DNA of 64,000 bases from Halorubrum lipolyticum DSM 21995 (GTDB taxonomy: Archaea; Halobacteriota; Halobacteria; Halobacteriales; Haloferacaceae): NCBI RefSeq assembly GCF_000337375.1, contig NZ_AOJG01000028.1, forward strand, positions 53,046 to 117,045. Reading direction: 5' to 3'. The notes under the pieces were generated by a model, which was not told the DNA's origin, made no database searches, and saw nothing but the letters and a program-made list of their open reading frames with translations. This document shows positions 20,234-27,842 of this stretch, in pieces. Position numbers and translations under genes: made by a program. Positions within the stretch are counted from its first letter, which is position 1. Each line of letters opens with the position of its first letter.

Positions 20234-20245
20234 CGAACACGTTCG
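20234..20245 (+). promoter_or_regulatory. CGAA-N4-TTCG palindrome, denitrification-type operator
   Basis: CGAACACGTTCG, a perfect 12-bp palindrome, 38 nt before the start codon of the DUF2249 gene. It belongs to the series of sites at 21690, 23434, 25584, 26140, 26343 and 27831. Confidence 0.75.
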
Positions 20246-20283
20246 GCACAACTGACGCGCCTGTCGGACGCAGATACCCGACT

Positions 20284-20556
20284 ATGACACGGAAGACGTC
20301 GGTCCTCGAAGAGACGGCCGCGCCAACTGACCGTCCGGTCGAAACGCTCGACGTCGCCGATCTCGGCCCGCCGGAGCCGCTTCGCCAGACGCTCGAACTG
20401 CTCGCGGACCTGCCGGATGAGACCGTCCTCGTTCAATACAACGACCGAGCTCCGCAGTTCCTGTTCCCGAAGCTCGCGGACCGCGGCTACGTGCACGACA
20501 CCGTCGAGACCGACGACGGCGTGGTTACGGCGATTTGGACAGACCCGGACGACTGA
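20284..20556 (+). CDS. DUF2249-domain protein
   Basis: The protein is 90 aa. The core LDVADLGPPEPLRQTLELLADLPDETVLVQYNDRAPQFLFPKLADRGY is the compact alpha/beta fold of DUF2249, a TusA-like family often found beside denitrification and heme-copper oxidase genes. Function is unproven; redox, sulfur or metal-centre handling has been guessed. A perfect CGAACACGTTCG palindrome lies 38 nt before its start, the arrangement shared by other genes of the island, so it is likely induced with nirK/nos. Confidence 0.88.
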   Translation: MTRKTSVLEETAAPTDRPVETLDVADLGPPEPLRQTLELLADLPDETVLVQYNDRAPQFLFPKLADRGYVHDTVETDDGVVTAIWTDPDD

Positions 20557-20612
20557 TGCACTCCCCGGGCGACGAGCATCGCCGCTCCCGCTGTTCCCTT
20601 TTATATATCGCA

Positions 20613-20654
20613 CCGAATAATTCGGATATCTCCCCCGTAGTTCGGGAATGCCCG
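20613..20654 (+). promoter_or_regulatory. Palindromes before halocyanin
   Basis: Two inverted repeats precede the halocyanin gene. One is CCGAA-TAA-TTCGG at 20613-20625, next to a TATATAT-like box at 20602-20608. The other is CGGG-AATG-CCCG at 20643-20654, which sits 37 nt before the start codon, matching the spacing of the CGAA-N4-TTCG sites though not their sequence. Confidence 0.4.
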
Positions 20655-20691
20655 TCGAAGGTATTCCCCCACCTCCCCTTCTTCAAACCGT

Positions 20692-21228
20692 ATGACTCGA
20701 CGCACTCTCGACCGGCGATCGTTCGTTCGAACGACTGCGGCGCTCGGCGTGACCACCGCGCTCGCCGGCTGTGGCGGCAGCAGCGGCGGCGACGGGAGCG
20801 ACGGTTCCGACGGGAGCAGCGGGGGTGACGGCTCCGATGGGGGGGACGGCTCCGACGGCGACAGCGGCGGCCAGGAGTTCCTCTCCGAGGAGCCGGACTA
20901 CGGTGGCTTCCTCGACGACGCCAACAACTACGAGCAGACCGCCGACATGACCGACTCCGACTCGGTGACCGTCGAGGTCGGCGCCGGCGATGGGCTGGCG
21001 TTCGGCCCCGCAGCGGTCGCGGTGTCGTCCGGAACGACCGTCACCTGGGAGTGGACGGGCGAGGGCGGCGACCACAACGTGTCGGGCTCCGACGGTAACT
21101 TCGAGAGCGAGACCGTCGGCGAGGAGGGCCACACCTTCGAGCACACGTTCGAGGAATCCGGCACCCATACGTACGCCTGTACGCCGCATGAGGCGGTCGG
21201 CATGAAGGGCGCCATTCACGTGGAGTGA
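20692..21228 (+). CDS. Halocyanin-type blue copper lipoprotein
   Basis: The protein is 178 aa. N-terminal twin arginine (RRSFVRTT) and lipobox (ALAGC) are followed by a Gly/Ser/Asp-rich spacer of about 40 residues. A plastocyanin-like domain carries type 1 copper ligands H (GGDHNVSG) and C-x2-H-x4-M (YACTPHEAVGM). It is a membrane-anchored extracellular electron carrier. Its place between nos genes and nirK makes it the likely electron donor to the copper nitrite and/or nitrous oxide reductases (inference). Confidence 0.95.
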   Translation: MTRRTLDRRSFVRTTAALGVTTALAGCGGSSGGDGSDGSDGSSGGDGSDGGDGSDGDSGGQEFLSEEPDYGGFLDDANNYEQTADMTDSDSVTVEVGAGDGLAFGPAAVAVSSGTTVTWEWTGEGGDHNVSGSDGNFESETVGEEGHTFEHTFEESGTHTYACTPHEAVGMKGAIHVE

Positions 21229-21293
21229 TACGCTCTCCGCCCTGAACGGACGGGACCGAGATGCGGGCCGCTCACGAGGGAATCGGAATCACC

Positions 21294-21308
21294 GGGGGGC
21301 CTTTTTAT
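21294..21308 (+). terminator. GC-to-T-tract terminator between convergent genes
   Basis: A run of G/C (GGGGGGCC) followed by TTTTTATT lies 65-80 nt after the halocyanin stop and just before the end of the convergent CGCGG gene. Archaeal termination often uses T-tracts. No hairpin is evident. Confidence 0.35.
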
Positions 21309-21312
21309 TAAC

Positions 21313-21651
21313 TCACTGCTGGACGCGATACACGTAGCCGCCGCAACCGCACTGATCGACGACGCTGGCCTCTGCGTCCGGGTAGTGGTCGTGGATCGGC
21401 GCCTCGAGATACTCCTCGGGAGTGCCGTGGTTCGGATGCGTGACGAGGTTGACGTGGTAGTCGGCGTCCGTCCGACCGATGGCCGCAAGTGCGTGCTCGA
21501 TCAGCGTCTCGCGATCGTCAGCGTACCGTTCCCGTTCGAGGTTCGCGGACCACGACGCATCGTGATCCCCGTCGAGAAACGAGGGTAACGACTCGTCGGT
21601 TTCGGAGGCAGCGGTACGTTCGGTATCAGATTGCTGGTCCCGTGTAGACAT
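21313..21651 (-). CDS. CGCGG-family putative radical-SAM-modified RiPP precursor
   Basis: The protein is 112 aa from the ATG at 21651. An upstream in-frame ATG at 21696 exists but lies inside a promoter palindrome. The C-terminal part reads VVDQCGCGGYVYRVQQ. This CGCGG core near the end, behind a conserved leader-like body (YHVNLVTHPNHGTPEEYLE, HDHYPDAEASV), is the signature of the haloarchaeal CGCGG family annotated as a target of a radical SAM enzyme. No radical SAM gene is in the window. The CGAACATGTTCG palindrome 38 nt before the start links it to the denitrification regulon. Confidence 0.82.
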   Translation of the reverse strand: MSTRDQQSDTERTAASETDESLPSFLDGDHDASWSANLERERYADDRETLIEHALAAIGRTDADYHVNLVTHPNHGTPEEYLEAPIHDHYPDAEASVVDQCGCGGYVYRVQQ

Positions 21652-21689
21652 GAATATACGTATGAGACGTACACACCTCCGTATCAGTG

Positions 21690-21701
21690 CGAACATGTTC
21701 G
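21690..21701 (-). promoter_or_regulatory. CGAA-N4-TTCG palindrome before the CGCGG gene
   Basis: CGAACATGTTCG, a perfect 12-bp palindrome, 38 nt upstream of the CGCGG precursor start on the minus strand. It has the same core and distance as at the DUF2249, DtxR-like and membrane-protein genes. Confidence 0.75.
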
Positions 21702-21800
21702 CTATGTCTCGCATTCTGGAGAGCCGGAAAGTCAGGTCGGCGGTCACGGGTGCGGTCCCAACCGATCCTCGGTTTGTCACGAATCGGCGATGCCGACGCT

Positions 21801-22472
21801 CTACGTGTCGGTGTCCGCACCGGAGTCGGATTCGATCGGATTTCGAGGGAGATCGTCGACGAACTCCCGAACGATCGTTCGTTCGACGCGTTGGAGGGTC
21901 TCGCTGCACGTGGATTTCGCGATCCCGACGTGTTCGGCGACCTCGGTCAGCGTACAGGTGCGTGGCACGTCGTAGTAACCGCGTTCGACCGCCTCGAACA
22001 ACACCTCTCGCTGCCGCTCGGTAAGCGACTCACCGGGGTTCAACCGCTGTTGAACGTACTCGACGTCGAACTCCGCACCGACGCCTCGGAGCGTCTTCCC
22101 GAAGTCGGCGACGCGCTCGTGGGCGCCGGTGATATCGATTCGAGCCACTCCGTTCTCTATCTCGACGGGCATCTCGATCGGGACGCCGGCCTGGCGTGCG
22201 GCCGTCATCAACAGGGGTGCGTGCGCCTCCACTTGGACGGTGGCGACCCCGTCACCCAGCGCCATGACCGAGACCTCCTCGATCGTGTCGTGGGCCTCTA
22301 TCGCGTCCAGCATTCCGTCGATGTCGTCAGCGGTGATCTTCACGAGCGCGAACCCCGCGCCGTCCCCGGGGGTCGCACTGAGTACCTGGATCCGCGCCTC
22401 CGGGAACGCCCGAGAGACCTCGCCGACCCAGGGTCCGTCTGGAAGGTCAACGTTGAGTCGGGCCTGTGCCAT
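21801..22472 (-). CDS. HTH-10 (bat-type) transcriptional regulator
   Basis: The protein is 223 aa. The C-terminal region LTERQREVLFEAVERGYYDVPRTCTLTEVAEHVGIAKSTCSETLQRVE is the HTH-10 domain typical of haloarchaeal Bat, DmsR and NarO proteins. The N-terminal 150 residues form a beta-rich sensor domain without the Cys cluster described for NarO. It is therefore more DmsR-like and may respond to something other than oxygen through Fe-S. Its position between the RiPP precursor and the cupins, nirK side, makes it a candidate regulator of the island and of the CGAA-N4-TTCG sites (inference). Confidence 0.88.
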   Translation of the reverse strand: MAQARLNVDLPDGPWVGEVSRAFPEARIQVLSATPGDGAGFALVKITADDIDGMLDAIEAHDTIEEVSVMALGDGVATVQVEAHAPLLMTAARQAGVPIEMPVEIENGVARIDITGAHERVADFGKTLRGVGAEFDVEYVQQRLNPGESLTERQREVLFEAVERGYYDVPRTCTLTEVAEHVGIAKSTCSETLQRVERTIVREFVDDLPRNPIESDSGADTDT

Positions 22473-22600
22473 ACCGCCTCTTAGCGGTCACGCCGGAAAT
22501 CGGTTCGTCTTCGTGTCCCGATCACAAACAAAATCTGCAGTAAGTGGACTCTCAGTGCTAATCGACGTGAGCTTCGCCCGTATCGCCCGCCGGCCTCCGG

Positions 22601-22906
22601 CTACTCGTCGGACCGAGACGCCAAGACGATCAGTGCAGTGGCGTCCTCGACGGCGCGGGGAGCGATCTCCCGATCACCGTCGAAGCGGGCCACGTCGCCC
22701 GCCGACAGCTCGTGTGTCTCGTCGACGAGCTCCAACTCGACCGTTCCCTCGATGAGATAAAACACGATCTCCCGGTCGGGATGCGAGTGGGGTGCGACTT
22801 CACCGCCCGCATCGAGGGTGAGTCTGATCGTCTTCGGTTCCGCGTCGGGGAAGACGTTGGCGTGGGGCCGTCCGTCCAGTTCGTTGAGATTGTGTATCGT
22901 CGTCAT
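22601..22906 (-). CDS. Small cupin protein
   Basis: The protein is 101 aa. It is a single cupin barrel with motif 1 HSHPDREIVFYLIEG (His, His, Glu pattern) and motif 2 LSAGDVARFDGDREIAPRA, where the usual last His is not obvious. It overlaps the upstream cupin by 4 nt (ATGA), so the two are coupled. Cupins of this kind occur beside denitrification genes in haloarchaea. The substrate is unknown. Confidence 0.85.
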   Translation of the reverse strand: MTTIHNLNELDGRPHANVFPDAEPKTIRLTLDAGGEVAPHSHPDREIVFYLIEGTVELELVDETHELSAGDVARFDGDREIAPRAVEDATALIVLASRSDE

Positions 22907-23283
22907 GCGTTGGTCGGATCGAACTCGTCAGTTCGGAGTCCCCGGCGGACCGGTTCGTGTTCGGCGTCGGTCGGCGGTGGTGCGGTAACGAGCAGCGCTT
23001 CGAGCCGCGAATCGTCGTCGGCTTTGACGCCGCGATCGGTCTCCGCCTCGACGGTCACGACGTCTCCCGGTTCGACGCGGCGTTCCTCATCGCCGTCGCG
23101 GACGAGCCCGGCGCCGGAACGGACGTCGATCACCACGTCACTGGACGGGGCGTGAACCGGGATGAACTGTCCCGGTTCGAAGTAGCCGCAGACGACTTTC
23201 ACCCGTTCGCTTCGGAACACATCGACCGTCGAGAACGTCTCGTCGTCGTACGTCCGTTCTGCATCGAAATCGATTGCCGTCAT
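22903..23283 (-). CDS. Second cupin-like protein
   Basis: The protein is 126 aa. It has a cupin-type barrel (VVCGYFEPGQFIPVHAPSSDVVIDVRSGAGLV, then VEPGDVVTVEAE), with a metal site reduced to one His in the first motif. It is translated with the following 101-aa cupin. It may pair with it as a bicupin-like dimer (inference). A 37-aa open frame ends over its start codon, and a CGAACATGTTCT site lies upstream of that. Confidence 0.8.
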   Translation of the reverse strand: MTAIDFDAERTYDDETFSTVDVFRSERVKVVCGYFEPGQFIPVHAPSSDVVIDVRSGAGLVRDGDEERRVEPGDVVTVEAETDRGVKADDDSRLEALLVTAPPPTDAEHEPVRRGLRTDEFDPTNA

Positions 23284-23393
23284 ACTGAATCACCCAGTCG
23301 ACGGGTTCCGCAATCGTTCGGCCGGACGGCGAGTCGCACCGTGATAGGCGATAACTCGATCGTCCGGACTATTTTAGGCTGGCCAAAAATCAT
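23280..23393 (-). CDS. Possible 37-aa leader peptide before the cupins
   Basis: The open frame MIFGQPKIVRTIELSPITVR and on, 37 aa, has its TGA overlapping the cupin ATG in a GTATGA arrangement. Its own ATG lies 40 nt from a CGAACATGTTCT site, which fits the spacing seen for the other genes of the regulon. It may be the true first cistron, or simply transcribed leader. No homology is recognised. Confidence 0.4.
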   Translation of the reverse strand: MIFGQPKIVRTIELSPITVRLAVRPNDCGTRRLGDSV

Positions 23394-23433
23394 CCGTTTC
23401 AGTGTATACCAGAGAGACACAATAGCGTTGGGA

Positions 23434-23445
23434 CGAACATGTTCT
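23434..23445 (-). promoter_or_regulatory. CGAA-N4-TTC(T) palindrome upstream of the cupin operon
   Basis: CGAACATGTTCT, 11 of 12 positions palindromic. It lies 40 nt upstream of the 37-aa frame and about 150 nt upstream of the first cupin. This is the same core GAACATGTTC as at 21691 and 26141. Confidence 0.65.
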
Positions 23446-23616
23446 CGTCAGATCGACCCTGTCGGTCAACTACTCGCTCTCACCTTCGTCGTCGGGAGGT
23501 CGCGGTGGAGGTCCTGTTCGACCTCGGCCATCTCCGCCTCGTAGTGAGGCCGGCCGTGTTTCGTTCCGCACGGTTCGATGACGCCCGGACGAGGTACCCC
23601 GTCGACCCATCGGACG

Positions 23617-24714
23617 CTACTCGTCGGATCCGGGGTCGTACACGTCCGAGTTCGGCTCGCCCTCGACGTCGACGACCGCGAGCGCGCCGCGCCGTCCGGC
23701 CCGCGAGAGCGCGTGGTCGACGATCTTGATCGGTCCCGGAATCGGTAGCTCCATCTCGCCGACCGTCGCCGTGCCGGGTGCGACCGCCGTGGTCTCGACG
23801 TACCTGCCGGGCGGGGAGACGAGGTCGCCGTCGCGGTAGAGCCGCGACCAGACGTTCCCGATCGGGTGCCACGAACTGGACTGGTTCGGGCCGCCGTTCA
23901 CGAAGAACACGCGGACGCTCTCGCCGACCGCGGCGCCGATTCCGCCGCGCCGGTCCTCCGTGAAGCCGTGGTGTTCGCCGTTGAACACGACGTACGTCGG
24001 GTCCTCGTCGAGCATCGCCCCGTGGTCGAAGGCGTGGTGGCCCTTCTCGCCGAGGTCGCCCTTGGTGTAGAGTTCGTGTTGTCCGAGGTAGAGTTCACGG
24101 TCCACCGCGGGCAGTCCCGCCTCGGGCTCGACGAGGATCGCGCCGAACATCCCGGAGCTGACGTGGTGGTCCATCGCCGGCACCGCGCAGTGGTAGGTGA
24201 ACAGCCCGGGGAACTCGGCGCGGAAGCTCAGTTCCGCCGCCTCGTCGCCGGGCACGAGCGTCGTGTCGACGGCCCCGCCACCGGGCCCGTACACGGCGTG
24301 GAAGTCCACGTTGTGGATGTCGCTGTTGTCGTCGGCCGGCACCTCGAACCGGAGGTTCACGGTGTCGCCCCGCCGCACTCGGATCATCGGTCCGGGGACC
24401 TGCCCCTCGAAGGTCATGTATTTGAACGTCACGCCGGGCTCGATCTCCGCGACGAGCTCCTTCGTGCGAAGGGCGATGTCGTGATCGCGAGGCTCGTCCC
24501 AGTCCACCGGCGCCGGCACGTCGGTCGGATCGGCCGCAATCCGGTCAGCGTCGACCTCGCGTGCGGGGTCCAACTCAGGGGTTACGGCCGGAGTCGTTTC
24601 GGCGGCAGGCGTCGGCTCCGCGTTCACGGGCGCGCCGATACAACCGGCGACGGCACCGACCGCTCCGATCCCGAGTGCTGCAACCATCTTCCGCCTGCTG
24701 AGGTCTTGTGACAT
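23617..24714 (-). CDS. nirK: Copper-containing nitrite reductase NirK
   Basis: The protein is 365 aa and reduces nitrite to NO outside the membrane. Seen: a twin-arginine-like start (SRRKMVAALG), a lipobox AGC with Cys25, and two cupredoxin domains. Copper ligands are visible in DFHAVYGPGG (type 1/2 His), FTYHCAVPAMDHHVSSGM (His, Cys, His, Met) and the second-domain SWHPIGNVWS (type 2 His). The promoter has a 14-bp palindrome over a TATA-like core. It is the hallmark gene of the island. Confidence 0.96.
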   Translation of the reverse strand: MSQDLSRRKMVAALGIGAVGAVAGCIGAPVNAEPTPAAETTPAVTPELDPAREVDADRIAADPTDVPAPVDWDEPRDHDIALRTKELVAEIEPGVTFKYMTFEGQVPGPMIRVRRGDTVNLRFEVPADDNSDIHNVDFHAVYGPGGGAVDTTLVPGDEAAELSFRAEFPGLFTYHCAVPAMDHHVSSGMFGAILVEPEAGLPAVDRELYLGQHELYTKGDLGEKGHHAFDHGAMLDEDPTYVVFNGEHHGFTEDRRGGIGAAVGESVRVFFVNGGPNQSSSWHPIGNVWSRLYRDGDLVSPPGRYVETTAVAPGTATVGEMELPIPGPIKIVDHALSRAGRRGALAVVDVEGEPNSDVYDPGSDE

Positions 24715-24754
24715 GATTCTTCCCTACTTCATCCGAGATGCCTTACTGATATAT

Positions 24755-24768
24755 ACAGTATATACTGT
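24755..24768 (-). promoter_or_regulatory. nirK promoter palindrome
   Basis: ACAGTATATACTGT, a perfect 14-bp palindrome with a TATA-like centre, 40 nt before the nirK start. It is at the same distance as the CGAA-N4-TTCG sites of neighbouring genes but unrelated in sequence. It may be the TATA box itself plus an operator. Confidence 0.45.
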
Positions 24769-24960
24769 TCCCTAATAGCGAGACGAAAGCGCTGCTTCCC
24801 CCAGTATGGGGGATCTTAAATACCCTACAAAATATGATATGAACAGCGGCGCATCACGACTGCTCGCGGTCGCCGTCAGATCGACTCTCCGGAGAGAGGT
24901 CGAACGATCGGTCGAACGACGGTACGGACGGTCGATCCCCGCTCGGAGACCAACGATTTG

Positions 24961-25071
24961 CTAGAGCCACTGCCATCCGAGACCGTGTATCACGATAACC
25001 GCCAGTACTCCGAAAACCCCCAGAGCCCCCATATAGAGAACCATGATAAGTCCCATCTGTTTTGTTGTCAT
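24961..25071 (-). CDS. 36-aa single-pass membrane peptide
   Basis: The open frame MTTKQMGLIMVLYMGALGVF and on, ending HGLGWQWL, is almost wholly one membrane helix. An in-frame ATG at 25101 would add 10 residues. A TATA-like TTATATAA at about 25106-25113 favours the shorter start with a leader of roughly ten bases. The gene is too short for routine gene calling. Small helices of this kind often associate with terminal oxidases or reductases. It is isolated in a 600-bp gap between nirK and a DUF2249 gene; apart from it and its promoter the gap shows nothing. Confidence 0.6.
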   Translation of the reverse strand: MTTKQMGLIMVLYMGALGVFGVLAVIVIHGLGWQWL

Positions 25072-25303
25072 CTCACCTTCAAGGATACTTGCGATTCTCA
25101 TGACATTATATAACATCCGACGCGCATAAATCCTTACAATCGTGTGTCACTCTATCGACTGATTAGAAAATTGAAACGAATTGTCCGGTGACGGACGCGG
25201 CTCCCACGAGACGGGCCGAGAGTATATCCGGTCGGTCGTCCGTCATTTCGTAGTCCCCGCTGATCGGCTCTTTCAGACCGGAATCTATGTAGATGATAGG
25301 AGT

Positions 25304-25546
25304 TCAGCAGAGCCGTTCGTGTCGAATCTCGATATACCACACGTCGGACCCGTCAGACGTCGTTTCGTACTGGAATCCGCGCTCTTCGAGGACCTGATAC
25401 AACGGCTCCGGCTCGAAGCTGTTGATCAACAGTAGCGTCTCGTCGTCGGGGAGCGCCTCGAGCTCGGCCATGATGTCTCCGAACGGTTCGCCGTCGATCT
25501 CTCGGACGTCCAGGCGTCGATCGGTCTCGTTTCGCTCAGTGGCCAT
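25304..25546 (-). CDS. DUF2249-domain protein, second copy
   Basis: The protein is 80 aa. The core LDVREIDGEPFGDIMAELEALPDDETLLLINSFEPEPLYQVLEERGF matches the DUF2249 pattern seen at 20284 (DVADL, DETVLVQY, PQFLFPKLADRGY). It has an EPEPLY motif typical of the oxidase-linked subgroup. A 16-bp palindrome CCCGAACGTATTCGGG lies 35 nt upstream; its CGAA-N4-TTCG core is 37 nt from the start. The gene is therefore likely co-induced with the other island genes. Confidence 0.85.
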   Translation of the reverse strand: MATERNETDRRLDVREIDGEPFGDIMAELEALPDDETLLLINSFEPEPLYQVLEERGFQYETTSDGSDVWYIEIRHERLC

Positions 25547-25581
25547 ATCTGTTCAAGCGTCGACGAGGAGGTGCGTGTTCC

Positions 25582-25597
25582 CCCGAACGTATTCGGG
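25582..25597 (-). promoter_or_regulatory. CGAA-N4-TTCG palindrome before the second DUF2249 gene
   Basis: CCCGAA-CGTA-TTCGGG, a 6-4-6 perfect inverted repeat. Its inner CGAACGTATTCG is 37 nt upstream of the start codon. Confidence 0.72.
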
Positions 25598-25617
25598 AAC
25601 GGTCCGGCCGGTGGTTT

Positions 25618-26100
25618 TCAACACTCCGTCCCCGCGAACGGACACCGCTCGACTCCGGTTGGTGCAGTCGCCGCACACGCGTTCGACGCTCCGTCGACGA
25701 GCGCTCGCAGGCGTTCGATCGCTTCGTCCGGGAGGACGTATCCGATTCGGTACCCCGCTTCGAGGGGCATGTCGAACCCCGTTCGACGGCGGAAGAACGT
25801 TCGGACGGCACACTGGCGCGCTTCGAGTTCCAGCGCGACTTCTCGCCCCCGATCGGTGAGCGCGACCCCGGCTCGCTTCTCGTATCGGAGAAGCCCAGTG
25901 TCGGCGAGCCGATCAAACAGCTCCGTCACGCTCGACGGCGTGACGTCGAGGCGATCGCTCACCTCGCCGGTCCGAACCCGACCGTCGCGGTCGGTGCCGA
26001 TCCGTCTGATCGCGATCAGGTACAGCCCGCCGTTCCGATCGACGCAGGCGGTGGGCCGCGCGCAGCCGCAGACGTCCGTCTGTGAGTGGTCGGTAGCCAT
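25618..26100 (-). CDS. DtxR-like winged-helix regulator with Cys clusters
   Basis: The protein is 160 aa. The body (LYLIAIRRIGTDRDGRVRTGEVSDRLDVTPSSVTELFDRLADTGLL, then GVALTDRGREVALELEARQ) is the N-terminal winged helix and dimer-helix region of DtxR/MntR-type regulators. The usual metal-site residues are not clearly preserved. Instead there is a Cys cluster at each end: CGCARPTAC at the N-terminus, and three Cys including CPFAGTEC at the C-terminus. These could bind an Fe-S cluster or metal and sense NO or oxygen (inference). Its promoter has CGAACATGTTCC 39 nt before the start, so it is itself in the regulon. Confidence 0.82.
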   Translation of the reverse strand: MATDHSQTDVCGCARPTACVDRNGGLYLIAIRRIGTDRDGRVRTGEVSDRLDVTPSSVTELFDRLADTGLLRYEKRAGVALTDRGREVALELEARQCAVRTFFRRRTGFDMPLEAGYRIGYVLPDEAIERLRALVDGASNACAATAPTGVERCPFAGTEC

Positions 26101-26139
26101 TATCGTACGGTCGACAGGCTCTGGATATGAGGGTACCTC

Positions 26140-26151
26140 CGAACATGTTCC
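26140..26151 (-). promoter_or_regulatory. CGAA-N4-TTC(C) palindrome before the DtxR-like gene
   Basis: CGAACATGTTCC, core GAACATGTTC, 39 nt upstream of the start codon on the minus strand. Confidence 0.7.
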
Positions 26152-26342
26152 CGTCTATCGTCGATTGCAAGATGGCCCTCTCTGACCGCAGTCAGCGGAG
26201 ACCGACGCGGTCGTGCAACCGGCTCGAGAGCCGCTATCCGTGACGGGTTCGCTGAGGGGTCGGGTCCCGTCAGAAGCGACCCACGCTCGTCGACGTATTG
26301 CTCCGCTCCGTCCCGGCAGGAAGGTCCGCGACCGACGGAAGG

Positions 26343-26354
26343 GGAACATCTTCG
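26343..26354 (+). promoter_or_regulatory. GGAA-N4-TTCG element before the orphan oxidase-like gene
   Basis: GGAACATCTTCG, a two-mismatch relative of CGAACATGTTCG, 38 nt upstream of the ATG at 26393. The matching distance supports both the site and the start choice. Confidence 0.6.
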
Positions 26355-26392
26355 GTGGTACCGTCAGGTGTACGGAGACCGTACCCGACCTC

Positions 26393-27751
26393 ATGGGCGC
26401 GATTCCGGGAAACATCGAGACGGACCAACAGCCCCCGATGACGGTCCCGTTACGACACTTCGTCGTCGGGCTCGTCTTTCTCGTCGCGGGAGTCGGAGTC
26501 GGGGTCGGCTTACATCTGAACGTCGTTCCGGGACTGGGGCGGCTCGCTCACGTCCATCTCCTGTTAGCCGGGTGGATCTGTATCACGATCATGGGTGCGA
26601 TGACGCAGTTCGTCCCCGTCTGGTCGGGGGCGACCCTCCACTCGAGGCGTCTCGCGAACGTGCAGTTGGGGCTGGTCGTCGCCGGTCTCTCCGGGTTCGT
26701 CGCCGCGTTTCTCCTGGTCGAGACGGCGTGGCTCATCCCGTTCGCGACGCTCATGCTCGTCGGCTTCTGGGTCTTCGCGTACAACATCGTCCGAACGCTC
26801 GGCACGGTCGAGGAGTACGACGTCACCGAACGCCACTTCCTCGGTGCGCTCGGCTTCGTACTCCTGTTGACCGCTCTCGGCGTCCTCCTCGCGGTCGATT
26901 TCACGGTTCCGACGTTCTCGCGGGTCGGCCTCAGCCGGTCCGGGGTGGTGGGAGCCCACGCGACCCTCGCGGTGTTCGGTGCCGTGCTCACGACGGTGTA
27001 CGGCGCGCTGTACCAGCTCGGGACGATGTTCACACAGACGGAACTACACGGGATCGACCACCGGCTCCGATCCGTCGAGGAGATCGCGCATCCCACCGGC
27101 GTGGTCGTGCTCGCGGTCGGTCGGCTCGCGGCTCACGCTCCCGTCGCGCGGGTCGGCGGTCTGTTGATCCTGTTCGCCGCGTCGGCGTTCTGTCTCGTTC
27201 TGGCACGCAAACTGTACGAGATGCGGGTCGAACGGACCCCGATGCACACGCGGTACATCGTGGCGGTCGGCGCACTCGCACTGTGGATCGCCGTCTCAGT
27301 ACCGGCTTGGATATCCGACCCGTTGACGCGTGAGCATCTGCTCGGCGCGGCGAACGCCGGCCACCTGCTGTTGTTGGGAGCGATCGGGTTCGTCGTCGTT
27401 GGGACGCTGTATCACATCGTTCCCTTCGTCATCTGGGTCAACCGGTACAGCGACCTGCTGGGGTTAGCGGACGTGCCGATGATCGACGACCTCTACGACG
27501 ACCGAATTGCCGCGCTCGACGGGGCACTCCTCGGGGGCGGAAGCGCGCTGATCGTGGGCGCGAACCAACTGGGAGTCGCCGGAACGCCGGCGCTCCTCGG
27601 CGGGCTGCTGGCGGGCGCCGGCGTCGCGGCGTTCGTGTCCAACATGGTGCTCGTGTTGGTCCGTCACAGCCCTCACTCGATCGATCGCATCGTCTTGGGC
27701 TCGTTCTCGCCGCGTCCCGCCCGCGCTCCCGGCGAGGCGAACGAGGAGTGA
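26393..27751 (+). CDS. Orphan heme-copper-oxidase-like / NnrS-like membrane protein
   Basis: The protein is about 452 aa with about 12 membrane helices. The ATG at 26393 is chosen because upstream codons are Arg-rich and because a regulon palindrome sits 38 nt before it. Conserved-looking His residues lie in membrane segments: LAHVHLLLAGW, GAHATLAVFG, NAGHLLLLG and GTLYHIVPFVIWVNRYSDLLG. This resembles oxidase subunit I or NnrS scaffolds but lacks the full set of CuB His. The lineup with nirK and nos genes suggests a role in NO handling or quinol electron transfer (inference). No norB gene is present in the window. Confidence 0.8.
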   Translation: MGAIPGNIETDQQPPMTVPLRHFVVGLVFLVAGVGVGVGLHLNVVPGLGRLAHVHLLLAGWICITIMGAMTQFVPVWSGATLHSRRLANVQLGLVVAGLSGFVAAFLLVETAWLIPFATLMLVGFWVFAYNIVRTLGTVEEYDVTERHFLGALGFVLLLTALGVLLAVDFTVPTFSRVGLSRSGVVGAHATLAVFGAVLTTVYGALYQLGTMFTQTELHGIDHRLRSVEEIAHPTGVVVLAVGRLAAHAPVARVGGLLILFAASAFCLVLARKLYEMRVERTPMHTRYIVAVGALALWIAVSVPAWISDPLTREHLLGAANAGHLLLLGAIGFVVVGTLYHIVPFVIWVNRYSDLLGLADVPMIDDLYDDRIAALDGALLGGGSALIVGANQLGVAGTPALLGGLLAGAGVAAFVSNMVLVLVRHSPHSIDRIVLGSFSPRPARAPGEANEE

Positions 27752-27830
27752 CGACTGGCCCGAACGCACGAGGTCGACGGCTCTGCCGTCCGAGAGGGCG
27801 GTCAGTTCCCGCGCGACGAGCCACCAAACA

Positions 27831-27842
27831 CGAACATGTACG
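27831..27842 (+). promoter_or_regulatory. CGAA-N4-T(A)CG element before an unknown gene
   Basis: CGAACATGTACG, one mismatch from the perfect palindrome, exactly 38 nt before the ATG at 27881. The spacing argues for that start rather than the upstream ATG at 27836. Confidence 0.6.

Follow-up and report, generated by a model that had tools for sequence, protein, structure and literature searches.

Seven near-palindromes at a fixed distance before genes around nirK of Halorubrum lipolyticum, predicted as operators of a Bat-type HTH_10 activator

We analysed a stretch of 64,000 nucleotides from Halorubrum lipolyticum DSM 21995 (contig NZ_AOJG01000028.1, positions 53,046 to 117,045; hereafter the window, in whose coordinates positions are given). 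Seven 12-bp near-palindromes are grouped there around nirK, and each ends 37 to 40 nucleotides (nt) before an ATG. From their sequence and position, these elements are probably operators of a Bat-type HTH_10 activator that would control a denitrification-linked regulon. The genes that follow them encode two DUF2249 proteins, a precursor of the CGCGG family of ribosomally synthesized and post-translationally modified peptides (RiPPs), a 37-amino-acid (aa) frame before a cupin pair, a DtxR-like regulator, a membrane protein of 12 predicted helices that resembles heme-copper oxidases (the oxidase-like protein), and a DUF7998 protein.

Seven elements and their rarity in the genome

The initial annotation had placed palindromes 37 to 40 nt before seven start codons, and all coordinates and gaps were found again in the window sequence (Table 1). 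Read toward the gene and taken in order of position, the 12-mers matched CGAACATGTTCG at 11, 12, 11, 10, 11, 10, and 11 bases, that is, at 10 of 12 or better in all seven; the distal half of the element at 27831 was TAC instead of TTC. When the threshold was lowered to 9/12, five further pairs of motif and ATG appeared in the window. Four of them look like chance, and the fifth (22946-22957, 39 nt before the second cupin gene) may be a weak member of the regulon.

A constant gap could also arise by chance or as an annotation artefact, if ATGs were picked near common CGAA/TTCG words. Such words are indeed common: bare CGAA-N4-TTCG occurred at 160 places in the 3.43-Mb genome, and was rejected as a marker because it is uninformative at that copy number, and one-mismatch matches in the window exceeded chance generally (87 versus 57.6). 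The perfect sequence GAACATGTTC was found at 7 places in the genome, three of them inside a 4.5-kb stretch of the window. A fourth lay between a quinol nitric oxide (NO) reductase gene and a ThiS-like gene, with a gap of 38 nt to the latter, and the remaining three were within long reading frames. The pattern GAAYAYSTWCG-N37..40-ATG gave ten matches genome-wide against 1 for the reversed control. These were the seven window sites, the NO-reductase locus, C1:20463, and C1:138970, the last of which falls within a predicted frame and probably arose by chance. When the same core was combined with the 30 gaps from 41 to 70, eight matches were obtained, one being the 27831 site with a later ATG; the frequency was thus 2.5 matches per offset at gaps 37-40 versus 0.27 at gaps 41-70. 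The motif at this spacing was accordingly rare, whereas a motif as common before random genes had been named in advance as grounds for abandoning the idea. The core was fitted to the window sites, and the independent tests are therefore those made in relatives.

At locus L018 (near 5001 and 5092), the NO reductase gene of the own genome and the divergent ThiS-like gene share the perfect operator at 131 and 38 nt, respectively, and a weaker copy lies 39 nt before the ATG of the reductase gene itself. Two copies of CGAACGTATTCG were seen on C1 of the own genome (L165, 775-786 and 1541-1552), by eye 40 nt before a third DUF2249-like frame and 37 nt before another frame.

Spacing in relatives and its relation to the core promoter

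The spacing recurred when relatives (80 named loci kept from 132 candidates) were scanned, as the initial annotation had proposed. At 30 oxidase-like loci, the window's included, the best upstream match (9 to 11 of 12 bases or more) had a gap of 38 in 28 cases and of 39 in two; for DUF7998, with the start set at ATG, 25 of 30 loci passed the filter, with a gap of 38 in 23 and of 37 in two. In the 80 loci, a site of at least 9/12 at 36-41 nt, the definition used for homologue counts unless stated otherwise, preceded 75/80 oxidase-like and 60/61 DUF7998 homologues, 39/40 and 41/41 DUF2249 homologues of the two types, 17/30 CGCGG, 12/19 DtxR-like, and 17/33 and 6/18 cupin homologues. These counts allowed any in-frame ATG as the start, which favours the expected gap and is to be held against them.

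A count independent of annotation gave the same distance. Among 618 strand-counted 11/12 sites in the 80 loci, an ATG stood at offset 38 in 144, versus 6.7 per offset on average. No ATG peak at offset 38 was seen in these loci with three rearranged palindromes, and a fourth control, changed in the outer bases only, kept the peak as expected. With the oxidase-like promoters and redundancy removed, 146 of 438 strand-oriented sites had an ATG at 37-41 nt versus 10-23 in eight shifted windows, which gave no peak. The offset-38 peak and the excess over shifted windows, together with the spacing kept across orthologues, refute a chance or annotation origin of the gap, to which we assign a negligible probability. 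Furthermore, a stricter pattern matched in 81 of 148 genomes of the family, covering 24 of 28 genera, although not every match was checked as intergenic; the reversed control gave none among the matches listed.

Subsequent comparison of 263 non-redundant promoters showed A or T favoured at +16/+17, +23, and +39/+40 from the first motif base. When the promoters were split by gaps of 37 to 41 nt (n = 41, 138, 26, 21, and 16), these positions stayed fixed to the motif and shifted relative to the start codon, which floats by 0-4 nt against them. For a transcript beginning at the ATG, they would correspond to about -34/-33, -27, and -11/-10, which match the positions of the TFB-recognition element (BRE), TATA box, and -10 WW element. 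These elements have been proposed for haloarchaea, and 72% of the protein-coding transcripts of Haloferax volcanii were described as leaderless (both in the available part of PMC4983044). Because the A/T positions keep their distance to the motif, the operator appears locked to the core promoter, and the sequences indicate that the ruler runs from the motif to the core promoter, not to the start codon. Hence, the fixed distance first noticed is real and belongs to a position-fixed element, but it is set by the core promoter. It also helps to define starts, as had been anticipated: database entries P0001, P0002, P0003, and P0006 begin the DUF7998 protein at an ATG inside the operator (27836-27838), a spurious N-terminus.

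We propose that the proximal promoters are leaderless and have a poor TATA box. The operator, at about -50 to -39, would abut the pre-initiation complex, and a bound dimer would recruit TBP/TFB, switching the regulon on at low oxygen with nitrogen oxides present. Operator, core promoter, and start site would then form one rigid unit; the distance to the start codon would be constant because of this unit and because most haloarchaeal messages are leaderless. In the bop promoter, the upstream activator sequence likewise borders the core promoter and occupies about -50 to -39. Bop and its regulator Bat (PMC1447603, as far as its text was available) have an HTH_10 activator in common with the system proposed here, whereas the sequence is different and bop is under light and oxygen control.

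The palindrome might instead be a repressor site or an operator for NO or metal stress, for example of the local DtxR-like protein, whose own gene it precedes, as it does in 12 of 19 homologues; by annotation, several members would fit NO or copper stress. However, a site upstream of the core promoter combined with a poor TATA box is typical of activation, and in Haloferax mediterranei the nos and nor promoters become less active, not more, when the motif is mutated (PMC10062603, in part). We consider this explanation improbable and retain that of an activator site.

The candidate regulator and the link to denitrification

Earlier publications already describe the motif, link it to denitrification, and report it at DUF2249 and activator genes. 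In the available parts of PMC10062603 and PMC11218638, the regulon of Hfx. mediterranei comprises the promoters of nar, nirK, nor, and nos, together with DUF2249 genes and an activator of the bacterioopsin type, and the motif CGAAYATDKTYG, mutations in which reduce nos and nor promoter activity (PMC10062603), is listed for 82-83 promoters. The DUF2249 genes and the motif-bearing activator, which lies in the nirK-nor cluster, are up under denitrification (PMC11218638). This system shares with the window the palindrome, the denitrification cluster, the DUF2249 genes, a halocyanin, and a nearby bacterioopsin-type activator. In contrast, the distance from its published sites to the ATG is 79 nt for nir, 66 nt for nor, and 69 nt for nos, whereas the window sites lie at 37-40 nt and the window's nirK and nosZ have none. 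In the same parts of the two papers, no positional rule, proximal fixed distance, two-geometry rule, or leaderless starts are noted.

As to the regulator, the protein encoded at 21801-22472 has the HTH_10 domain of Bat-type regulators. In Pfam, its HVO_0513_N match was sub-threshold, its BAT match was at threshold, and DmsR_N gave no match; a true DmsR_N protein, from locus L110, scored 126 bits for that domain. Strong matches to this protein (E 1e-40 or better) occurred in 87/91 genomes with the oxidase-like gene versus 17/57 without it, and such a gene lay within 20 kb of the oxidase-like gene in 50/91 genomes and of nirK in 52/73. Among 36 HTH_10 homologues, 13 had a site at 36-41 nt; at 10/12 or better, 12 had one and 16 more had one within 200 nt. 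In one class of Halorubrum genomes, a proximal site adjoins the HTH_10 orthologue. The neighbouring HTH_10 protein or a paralogue is, we infer, most likely the regulator.

The binder could also be a NarO/DmsR-type HTH_10 protein encoded elsewhere, with the local protein a bystander or secondary regulator. NarO, which carries N-terminal cysteines, is an HTH_10-type denitrification regulator, a type to which the local protein may also belong, but the local protein has neither the cysteines nor a DmsR_N match. For Hfx. volcanii, NarO has been published as the regulator, and the available part of PMC10062603 credits a similar motif to a NarO study; at locus L110, moreover, a perfect site with a gap of 38 accompanies a protein with both DmsR_N and HTH_10. 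However, the best match to the L110 protein in the own genome is only 37% identical over residues 27-207, and Hfx. mediterranei reportedly carries the motif without having NarO (PMC10062603, in part). The presence of a NarO/DmsR-like protein was also tried as a discriminator and dropped, as all 148 genomes had some HTH_10 match and no clean cut was obtained. In our estimate, a NarO-type binder encoded elsewhere is less likely than not, though more probable than a repressor, and an activator of the local HTH_10 type is preferred.

Several points weigh against the local HTH_10 protein as activator of a denitrification regulon. The co-occurrence counts above are uncorrected for phylogeny. The own genome has 16 HTH_10 matches; paralogues are thus many, and the local protein is a candidate binder. 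No motif was found upstream of the window's HTH_10 gene or its nearest relatives (two at L086, 89% and 56% identical, and one at L094, 61%); therefore, autoregulation is not common to all. The strict published consensus CGAAYATDKTYG fits exactly at one of the seven window sites (21690), in addition to the NO-reductase locus, and 67 of the 148 genomes, some with the oxidase-like gene, had no match to the stricter pattern. The transcription start sites used here were derived from sequence. Finally, no motif better than 7/12 was found within 200 nt upstream of the window's nirK and 300 nt upstream of its nosZ, and seven of eight nirK homologues at 88-92% identity were likewise without it, the eighth (L092) being an N-terminally partial match.

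The operator is thus present at the nor locus and absent from the window's nirK and nosZ promoters. Of the proposed regulon linking known and unknown denitrification genes, one part holds, in that the unknown genes share the operator of the Hfx. mediterranei nar/nirK/nor/nos regulon, but the window's own nirK and nosZ reach at most 7/12, and therefore co-expression with this nirK does not follow. In the window's nirK promoter, GGGAA and TATATA are kept. A 14-bp palindrome, ACAGTATATACTGT, lies over the TATA region (about 24750-24775, minus strand) in place of the CGAA palindrome. Next to nirK, a 51-aa hydrophobic frame (24961-25116, minus strand) had no relative in the 80 loci.

A second spacing and the proteins of the predicted regulon

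In relatives, sites of at least 10/12 were found at 77-84 nt before 16/41 NirK homologues, at 66-67 nt before 7/12 quinol NO reductase (qNor) homologues, and at 65-78 nt before 9/25 halocyanin homologues, eight of the 25 having one at 36-41 nt. The single spacing first supposed for the regulon therefore describes the seven window frames but not the enzyme and electron-donor genes of relatives, where it is longer. Judging from these relatives, qNor, halocyanin, and nirK would share this operator but have it about 28 nt farther from the gene, together with TTC-N11-GAA and a strong TATA box. In 27 non-redundant distal promoters, chosen by family and a gap of 60-90, A occurred at +33 at a frequency of 0.89 and T at +18/+19 at 0.56/0.70, with an A/T-rich TATA region at +47 to +51; these base frequencies and the listed sequences suggest the extra TTC-N11-GAA element. 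In the full set of 840 sites that lack a proximal ATG, GAA was found at +32 in 32 cases versus a mean of 15.2, and TTC at +19 in 24 versus 14.7. Because this signal is only about twofold and the 27 promoters were preselected, the element is weaker than the proximal rule. Since the window contains eight N3 variants, the CGAA-N3-TTCG with a gap of 66 before the window's halocyanin gene is suggestive only of a distal operator.

Tentatively, and with less confidence than for the operators themselves, one palindrome may serve two rigid geometries: a proximal one centred at about -44 with a poor TATA box (DUF2249, oxidase-fold, DUF7998, cupin, and RiPP precursor genes), and a distal one at about -72 with TTC-N11-GAA and a strong TATA box (NO reductase, halocyanin, and nirK). 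A single activator would then drive two tiers of expression, to which the genes of the regulon are assigned by spacing, and the oxidase-fold and DUF7998 proteins might form a nitrogen-oxide or redox module that has gone unrecognised in haloarchaea.

The predicted model of the oxidase-like protein, which is 91% identical to a Halorubrum amylolyticum protein, has the 12-helix fold of heme-copper oxidase subunit I. His55, 189, 233, and 324 are invariant in alignment A1; of the six-histidine ligand set for heme and copper, neither the high-spin-heme His nor the paired CuB His seems, by eye, to be present. Its profile gave only weak matches to mechanosensitive channels among solved-structure sequences and no alignment to qNor; only the predicted fold was informative. 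By size, location, and domain, a likely homologue is HFX_2180, a 440-aa COX-domain protein near nirK that was seen with Nir in an enrichment (PMC7754194, in part). The oxidase-fold and DUF7998 proteins form a near-obligate pair: of 148 genomes, 90 encode both, 4 only one of them, and 54 neither. For the window's DUF7998 protein, no Pfam match was found to the protein itself, its AlphaFold2 model was unreliable (predicted local distance difference test, pLDDT, 33), and its profile matched no solved structure. The CGCGG precursor belongs to TIGR03995; a literature search for this family and for DUF7998 found nothing.

The stop of the 37-aa frame overlaps the cupin start, and relatives keep the ATG while the peptide drifts. 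The frame resembles a short leader ahead of a cupin operon more than an independent gene. In relatives, its first codons often contain the inverted repeat TTTAGGC-NNN-CCTAAA, which sits where the transcript is predicted to begin and resembles DtxR/Idr-type operators. The labels P-type ATPase, CtaA-like, and peroxiredoxin-like for other families are readings of the sequences and not tool results.

Table 1 Features of the nirK region of the window. Gaps are in nt from element to ATG; minus-strand elements are given toward the gene where marked.
Feature	Position	Strand	Evidence
Predicted proximal operator CGAACACGTTCG, gap 38 to DUF2249 gene	20234..20245	+	36-41 nt site in 39/40 homologous genes of 80 loci
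DUF2249 protein, 90 aa	20284..20556	+	PF10006 48.9 bits, cut-off 29.5
Candidate distal operator CGAA-N3-TTCG(G), gap 66 to halocyanin gene	20614..20625	+	GAA +32 to +34, TATT near +48 as in relatives' distal promoters
Halocyanin/azurin-like Tat (twin-arginine translocation) protein, 178 aa	20692..21228	+	PF00127 56 bits
CGCGG-family putative rSAM (radical S-adenosylmethionine)-modified RiPP precursor, 112 aa	21313..21651	-	TIGR03995 110.5 bits, cut-off 70
Predicted proximal operator CGAACATGTTCG, gap 38 to CGCGG gene	21690..21701	-	36-41 nt site in 17/30 homologues
HTH_10 (Bat-type) regulator, 223 aa, candidate activator	21801..22472	-	PF04967 68.6 bits, cut-off 23.1; co-occurrence, proximity
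Cupin, 101 aa; weak 9/12 site 22946-22957, gap 39	22601..22906	-	PF07883; 36-41 nt site in 17/33 homologues
Cupin, 126 aa, downstream of 37-aa frame	22903..23283	-	PF07883
37-aa frame, gap 40; stop overlaps cupin start	23283..23393	-	Sequence
Predicted proximal operator AGAACATGTTCG (toward gene), gap 40	23434..23445	-	Sequence
nirK; without intact operator, best 7/12 in 200 nt upstream	23617..24714	-	TIGR02376 351 bits
Second DUF2249 protein, 80 aa	25304..25546	-	PF10006 68.9 bits
Predicted proximal operator CGAATACGTTCG (toward gene), gap 37	25584..25595	-	36-41 nt site in 41/41 homologues
DtxR-like regulator, 160 aa	25618..26100	-	PF01325 36.3 bits, cut-off 26
Predicted proximal operator GGAACATGTTCG (toward gene), gap 39	26140..26151	-	36-41 nt site in 12/19 homologues
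Predicted proximal operator GGAACATCTTCG, gap 38	26343..26354	+	Gap 38 in 28/30 loci, 39 in 2; 36-41 nt site in 75/80
Heme-copper-oxidase-fold membrane protein, 452 aa, 12 predicted membrane helices	26393..27751	+	AlphaFold2 pLDDT 85.4; Foldseek, VIA matches to cbb3 and NOR (NO reductase)
Predicted proximal operator CGAACATGTACG, gap 38	27831..27842	+	36-41 nt site in 60/61 homologues
DUF7998 (PF25979) protein, 192 aa	27881..28459	+	PF25979 in homologues; co-occurs with oxidase-like protein

When motif and distance are combined into one rule, some ten candidates per genome are left of the 160 motif copies, and start codons are corrected. The rule would link nitrogen-oxide respiration to a family of RiPP precursors and to two protein families without an assigned function, and it would narrow the question of the regulator of haloarchaeal denitrification to one neighbouring gene.

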